From Aptenodytes patagonicus (lineage: Eukaryota > Chordata > Aves > Sphenisciformes > Spheniscidae): DNA of 64,000 bases. The stretch covers positions 819,672-883,671 of the forward strand of contig NC_134975.1 of the NCBI RefSeq assembly GCF_965638725.1. Direction: 5' to 3'. Under the pieces are notes generated by a model. It saw only the letters and a program-made list of their open reading frames with translations, did not search any database and was not told the origin of the DNA. Of the stretch, positions 28,400 to 28,563 are shown one piece after another (within the stretch, counting starts at the first letter, position 1; each line of letters begins with the position of its first letter). The position numbers and the translations under genes were made by a program.

Positions 28400-28563
28400 T
28401 TTCTTATCCTTTTCATCTTTATTATCACTCTTGTTAACAACACCAATGAGACTGGATACATATATCTCCTTTAAATGCAGTCATCCATGGAGCCATTGTA
28501 GTTGCTAGCTACAGATATATTAATTAATTTATTCTCTCAACAGTAAAATATTGCTGTGTCTAC
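28400..28563 (+). ncRNA. HOTAIR: Conserved HOTAIR-like segment (part of the long 3' exon)
   Basis: HOTAIR is a mammalian lncRNA transcribed antisense to HOXC genes from between HOXC11 and HOXC12. Two pieces here match the long last exon of human HOTAIR as I remember it. The first, 28400-28455, shares TTCTTATC, CATCTTTAT, CTTGTTAACAA, ACCA and GAG..TGG in the same order and near-identical spacing. The second, 28520-28563, shares TAATTAATT, then GTAAAATAT and GTCTAC in order. The strand is plus, opposite to the HOX genes, as expected. A possible splice acceptor (pyrimidine-rich then CAG) ends at 28543, inside the matched region. Transcription, exon bounds and function cannot be shown from sequence, and the match could instead be a conserved DNA element that mammalian HOTAIR happens to include. 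The comparison sequence was recalled, not searched. Confidence 0.6.

Follow-up and report, generated by a model that had tools for sequence, protein, structure and literature searches.

Whether any part of HOTAIR is older than the mammals is the question raised by this locus. He et al. stated in 2011 that 'HOTAIR exists only in mammals' (PMC3103462), and for birds the basis of this statement was the 2006 chicken assembly. The chicken HoxC cluster was left out of a 2015 paper, more than half of its sequence being missing (PMC4470032), and a 2021 review places HOTAIR orthologues in rodents, carnivores, primates and marsupials (PMC8293171). An Rfam survey of 48 avian genomes names HOTAIRM1, HOXA11-AS1 and HOTTIP; in the accessible part of its text, HOTAIR occurs only as part of HOTAIRM1 (PMC4378963). 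Quinn et al. (2016) searched 43 vertebrate genomes and reported HOTAIR sequence elements in every one, down to zebrafish (PMC4719309), and a figure legend in the tammar paper indicates much lower conservation in frog (PMC3541083). The window referred to below is the whole stretch of 64,000 nucleotides of Aptenodytes patagonicus DNA that was analysed.

Homeodomains of the HOXC11, HOXC12 and HOXC13 type, which we take to be the right names, are found on the minus strand of the window near 14615, 35487 and 47264. The first exons of the two genes that border the interval of interest are as follows:

16069 to 16836, minus strand: exon 1 of HOXC11, a stop-to-stop frame with a Pfam match (PF12045, DUF3528) and a homeodomain exon near 14615.
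36324 to 37094, minus strand: exon 1 of HOXC12, a stop-to-stop frame without a Pfam match and with a homeodomain exon near 35487.

DUF3528 is presumably the Hox11 N-terminal family, and Pfam gave no match on three further first-exon frames of the window. Group-11 paralogues are present on two other contigs of the same genome. One of these contigs (C6) carries a group-12 homeodomain beside its group-11 gene and, because of this arrangement, was assigned to HOXD and the window to HOXC by protein sequence comparison.

A sequence-only reading of the window had placed a HOTAIR-like block on the strand antisense to these genes, between HOXC11 and HOXC12. Both strand and interval hold, as the HOXC genes are on the minus strand and a HOTAIR siRNA sequence aligns on the plus strand. 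This sequence, TAACAAGACCAGAGAGCTG, is listed as a HOTAIR target sequence in PMC10073411, is given as a HOTAIR siRNA in PMC6461983 and forms the sense insert of a HOTAIR shRNA in PMC3795022; it reads along the plus strand of the window, opposite to the HOXC genes, and, with the exception of one letter, complements the Rfam model. Both Rfam models, RF01904 and RF01905, hit the minus strand of the window (28403-28550). We conclude that they run antisense to the HOTAIR transcript and that plus is the right strand for the block because the siRNA and shRNA letters complement RF01905, RF01904 being judged by its order. A strand-aware annotation using these two models would come out wrong.

The block consists of two conserved parts and a linker:

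28401 to 28455, plus strand: conserved block A, homologous to part of exon 6 of human HOTAIR and matched by Rfam HOTAIR_2 (model on the minus strand, 28403-28468).
28456 to 28520, plus strand: linker between blocks A and B, outside both blastn alignments, of 65 nt as against 67 in an approximate human HOTAIR sequence.
28521 to 28563, plus strand: conserved block B, homologous to the part of HOTAIR exon 6 that follows and matched by Rfam HOTAIR_1 (model on the minus strand, 28519-28550).

The sequence-only reading had named words shared with the 3' exon of HOTAIR, and inspection of the window found all of them in the same order: TTCTTATC, CATCTTTAT, CTTGTTAACAA and ACCA, followed by TAATTAATT, GTAAAATAT and GTCTAC. 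Its claim of two ordered stretches is borne out by HOTAIR_2, which does not depend on an approximate human sequence, and by blastn. The RF01905 (HOTAIR_2) match covers 28403-28468 with model positions 1 to 69 and one 3-nt gap (46.5 bits, E=1.1e-8), E-values of this search referring to 9.5 kb and 4227 families. It is adjoined, on the identical strand, by the RF01904 (HOTAIR_1) match at 28519-28550 (21.2 bits), with E=2.2 in the 9.5-kb search and E=0.074 in a 321-bp search. Dinucleotide-shuffled Rfam consensus sequences reached the observed score within 64 kb in 0 of 400 cases for HOTAIR_2 and in 2 of 400 for HOTAIR_1. Neither match reaches the Rfam gathering score (60 bits for HOTAIR_2 and 44 bits for HOTAIR_1), and a default Rfam scan of the whole window is therefore empty; the same cut-off would apply in an Rfam survey of birds.

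An approximate human HOTAIR sequence of about 1.17 kb served as the blastn query against the 64 kb. The best 2 of the 8 hits listed (E<=1) were block A (44/55 identical, E=8e-7) and block B (35/44, E=0.001), both plus/plus, so that an alignment to human HOTAIR above chance, which had been set beforehand as a test, was obtained with this approximate sequence. The spacing of the two blocks is nearly kept by blastn, the block starts being 121 nt apart in approximate human HOTAIR and 120 nt apart in the window. We find the weaker block B convincing because its position and order fit, the spacing figure resting on approximate human letters. When HOTAIR_2 was searched against the host genome (1.35 Gb), the best 2 of the 11 matches listed (E<=10) were the block locus and a second assembled copy of it (E=2.4e-4, 31.3 bits), the next match having E=0.16 and 22.3 bits. 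In this search, scoring was limited to 62 of 159463 first-look candidates, and among 14 prokaryote control genomes 8 also contain matches to the model at E<=10, none of them over the cut-off; for these reasons, we regard the weak genome-wide matches as meaningless. A 201-bp query around the block matched the block locus and the second copy alone, and the two copies are identical. At the level of sequence comparison, then, ordered, same-strand and near-equally spaced homology of 28401-28455 and 28521-28563 to human HOTAIR exon 6 is confirmed. The block is noncoding, syntenic and kept across amniote classes, the comparison being between HOTAIR models and one sauropsid genome. That the host is a sauropsid is borne out by at least 150 matches in its genome to Pfam Keratin (PF02422, E<=1e-10; 150 of 380 candidates scored), the sauropsid beta-keratin family.

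Recognisable HOTAIR sequence in the interval amounts to about 165 nt only. The approximate HOTAIR sequence (nt 1-1167) was cut into fifteen overlapping slices of 100 nt, and these were compared with the plus strand of 16837-35290, with 60 mononucleotide shuffles of each. Three slices, which cover the block, were clearly above all 60 shuffles (scores of 35, 40 and 39; shuffle maxima of 26, 26 and 29). Slice 601-700 was marginally above its shuffles (27 versus a maximum of 25 among 60), with a match to T-rich, low-complexity sequence at 28130-28150 on the plus strand, upstream of the block, where the order of HOTAIR would place it. The other 11 slices were not above their shuffles, the nearest ones being reached by 4 to 6 of the 60. 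HOTAIR nt 1-890, an approximate sequence with unmarked exon borders, thus has no match beyond shuffles in the interval except the marginal T-rich one. HOTAIR exon 4, which was highly conserved in all species of a comparison among mammals (PMC3541083), gave no hit when searched as part of the approximate sequence by blastn and in the slice test. Two Rfam searches over 16500-36000 listed 31 and 25 matches (E<=10), among which HOTAIR_1 and HOTAIR_2 were the only HOTAIR families. HOXA11-AS1_2 adjoins HOXA11 in the same genome (L026:705-881, minus strand; 91.1 bits, over the cut-off), and this match is a good positive control, demonstrating that Rfam lncRNA models work on this genome. He et al. described exon 6 domain B (nt 950-1190) as a possible backbone of HOTAIR (PMC3103462); the block lies at nt 891-1055 in approximate HOTAIR numbering and, by that numbering, would overlap or form the start of this domain.

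Our preferred reading, with a probability of about 0.62, is that the block, lying between HOXC11 and HOXC12, is an ancient cis-regulatory DNA element, later exonised by mammalian HOTAIR. The comparisons above indicate that the block sequence is at least as old as the split between mammals and sauropsids. The survival of one small piece, with nothing clearly recognisable of the transcript sequence that precedes it, looks like the mark of a DNA element. The sequence-only reading had left the choice between an old lncRNA and an old DNA element; its homology, strand and interval all stand, and we lean towards the DNA element by reason of the isolated piece of about 165 nt and of folding at shuffle level. 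The plus strand of the block shows no stronger folding than shuffled sequence (z=0.02, equalled by 92 of 200) and the minus strand only slightly stronger folding (z=-1.06, equalled by 26 of 200), and RNA structure as a conserved feature is unsupported by this folding of one sequence. Against a DNA element, the near-constant length of the linker suits an RNA too. The exons of lncRNAs may lose most of their sequence and yet stay transcribed, and missing exons are therefore no proof of a missing transcript.

As to mechanism, transcription factors may bind the kept words, which we presume to include a homeodomain-type TAATTAATT core, CATCTTTAT and the palindrome TTGTTAACAA, and the bound element would tune HOXC11 and HOXC12 in posterior tissues. 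In mammals, the antisense unit HOTAIR would have grown over the element and taken it into its long last exon. A GATA reading of the kept word CTTATC was rejected, as the word stands here in GGATAAG, which is not a full WGATAR site. In mice with a deletion of the two major Hotair exons, Hoxc11 was raised and Hoxc12 lowered in cis, and the Hoxd genes were unchanged in the embryonic tissues tested (PMC5157951), which contradicts the trans effects on Hoxd reported for an earlier Hotair knock-out. The authors, Amandio et al., argue that the cis effect is DNA-dependent and ascribe it to lost transcription-termination signals, not to a lost enhancer (PMC5157951). A Hotair exon deletion probably removes the old DNA element too, a point of relevance to the disputed mouse knock-outs.

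A second candidate element, 2.3 kb away, perhaps acts jointly with the block:

26058 to 26088, plus strand: candidate HOXC copy of a paralogous HOXC/HOXD conserved noncoding element, 26/31 identical to the HOXD11-HOXD12 element of this genome, its identity being judged by the element described in PMC7139118.

Nepal et al. (2020) described an intronic 32-nt element of HOTAIR, paralogous to a sequence that jawed vertebrates carry between HOXD11 and HOXD12 (PMC7139118). Both copies were reported except in teleosts and birds; for birds, the authors propose that the HoxC cluster had not been assembled and that its copy escaped detection for this reason. The element has enhancer marks in human and mouse, and deletion of the Hoxd copy is reported to give no phenotype (PMC7139118). 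We compared the HOXC interval with 9.9 kb covering HOXD11-HOXD12 of the same genome, in which a run of N lies directly beside the element. Positions 3441-3471 of this locus (L028) match 26058-26088 of the window at 26/31 (blastn, plus/plus), and the two share their orientation relative to the HOX genes; a low-complexity hit (38.3 bits) outranks this match, which becomes first once low-complexity sequence is masked. The 19-letter pattern TAACTTGACCTTNACTTTG occurs in the 1.35 Gb only at the HOXD site and in the two assembled HOXC copies, and its reversed control occurs nowhere. This search shows only that the word is uncommon, and shuffling is the fairer test because the pattern was chosen after the match; shuffles reached the score of the 26/31 match in 15 of 300 cases on either strand and in 4 of 300 on the same strand. 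These statistics are moderate; with the published prior, it is quite probable that 26058-26088 is the bird HOXC copy of the Nepal element. The first 12 letters of 26058-26088, searched in the open-access literature on both strands as DNA and as RNA, returned no HOX paper by title. A counterpart of the block was also sought within HOXD11-HOXD12 and next to HOXA11 in this genome (L026-L028), but Rfam matched no HOTAIR family there. An A-rich HOXD match touching 28391-28413 (22/24, opposite strand) was discarded, its 31.9 bits lying below the 95% level of shuffles (34.6).

The best surviving alternative, unlikely in our view, is that birds transcribe an antisense RNA with an exon that contains the block, which would have been kept for an RNA function, the HOTAIR lncRNA then predating the mammals. 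The strand, the HOXC11-HOXC12 interval and the nearly kept spacing of blocks A and B are consistent with such an RNA, as is the apparent overlap of the block with, or its position at the start of, the well-conserved exon-6 domain B (PMC3103462, the position being inferred). HOTAIR is transcribed in a marsupial, as found by RT-PCR (PMC3541083). Quinn et al. treated syntenic elements as putative orthologues and reported signs of conservation for several experimentally verified HOTAIR RNA structures (PMC4719309). However, no other HOTAIR region was clearly recognised by Rfam, blastn or the slice test, and the plus strand of the block carries no RNA structure signal. An AATAAA at 28580 on the plus strand would suit a transcript, but such words are common here (7 AATAAA/ATTAAA in 28301-30300). 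Chicken RNA-seq models include ncHoxD11 only, though bird HoxC was then unassembled (PMC7139118). That birds transcribe a HOTAIR orthologue with the block in an exon, and that HOTAIR RNA dates to the amniote ancestor, we hold to be a little less likely still. If this were true, and given a HOXC copy of the paralogous element in birds, the proposed pairing of HOTAIR and ncHOXD11 RNAs would be testable in chick.

We consider it improbable that the block is a 3' end or terminator that keeps HOXC12 and HOXC11 apart on both strands and later became common to mammalian Hotair and AntiHotair. Deletion of mouse Hotair does cause transcripts of both strands to run on, and the short AntiHotair normally ends within the deleted region (PMC5157951). 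Polyadenylation-signal words are present for both strands, namely the AATAAA at 28580 (plus) and TTTATT at 28418 and 28528 (for minus). However, such words are frequent near the block (7 TTTATT/TTTAAT in 27301-28700), the HOTAIR_2 consensus has CATAAA, not AATAAA, at the counterpart of 28418, so that the signal there has not been kept, and much of the conservation sits in other words. The least likely explanation by far is a chance likeness of AT-rich sequences, for while block B is weak by itself (HOTAIR_1 E=2.2; 2/400 shuffles reaching its score somewhere in 64 kb), block A is ruled out as a chance match by HOTAIR_2 (E=1.1e-8; 0/400 shuffles) and by the top genome-wide rank of this syntenic locus among the 11 matches listed, and block B follows it in order at 120 nt.

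A CpG-rich stretch (28801-29550) lies just past the block on the HOXC12 side. Mouse AntiHotair has a CpG-island promoter near the 3' end of Hotair (PMC5157951). We give no weight to 28801-29550 as a counterpart of this promoter, there being 23 such islands in the window by a loose criterion.

A DNA element exonised by mammalian HOTAIR, the reading that we favour, can be set against known systems. The block resembles mammalian HOTAIR exon 6 domain B, and the HOTAIR_1 and HOTAIR_2 families, in sequence, order, spacing, strand and HOXC11-HOXC12 interval; it differs in that about 165 nt are recognised, with no other exons and with scores below the gathering cut-offs, and in being known here from DNA alone. 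The elements of Quinn et al. (2016) are likewise short HOTAIR elements in a syntenic locus (PMC4719309). The 32-nt element of Nepal et al. shares with the block its interval and its nature as an ancient element inside the HOTAIR locus, but lies 2.3 kb from it and is intronic in mammalian reference transcripts. The regions of HOXA11-AS1, HOTAIRM1 and HOTTIP are also HOX-cluster lncRNA regions found by Rfam; they differ in having been reported for birds, HOTAIR being unnamed in the relevant part of that survey (PMC4378963).

The sequence-only reading had regarded a HOTAIR block outside the mammals as surprising. The match is real, but the surprise is smaller than was claimed, since pre-mammalian HOTAIR elements have been published (PMC4719309, PMC7139118); that parts of HOTAIR predate the mammals was already on record from Quinn et al. 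(2016) and Nepal et al. (2020), and little is overturned. Neither a bird exon-6 block nor a bird HOXC copy of the paralogous element was found reported among the open-access papers listed. The new contribution is to place a strong match to the core of exon 6 within the HOXC cluster of a sauropsid, and to add what is probably the bird HOXC copy of the paralogous element. As judged by sequence homology, the statement of He et al. (2011) that 'HOTAIR exists only in mammals' is contradicted for part of exon 6. Because the match in a sauropsid is well supported, this part of exon 6 would not have been made de novo in mammals. The block fills a gap: in birds, for which an assembled HOXC cluster was long lacking, it provides a target that is both small and defined.

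The HOXC region is present twice on the same contig in inverted orientation, arm 1 spanning 807021-873694 (and ending at window position 54023) and arm 2 spanning 946641-1013269. The two arms are 98.1-99.2% identical in three long alignments, and N gaps lie at or near the ends of the second copy. Most likely, this second copy is an uncollapsed second haplotype placed by scaffolding and not a real duplication. Long simple-repeat tracts are also found near and inside the HOXC cluster (59200-60430 and 23620-24140), and these are open in several frames, with encoded runs such as KERKG and FLFFS.
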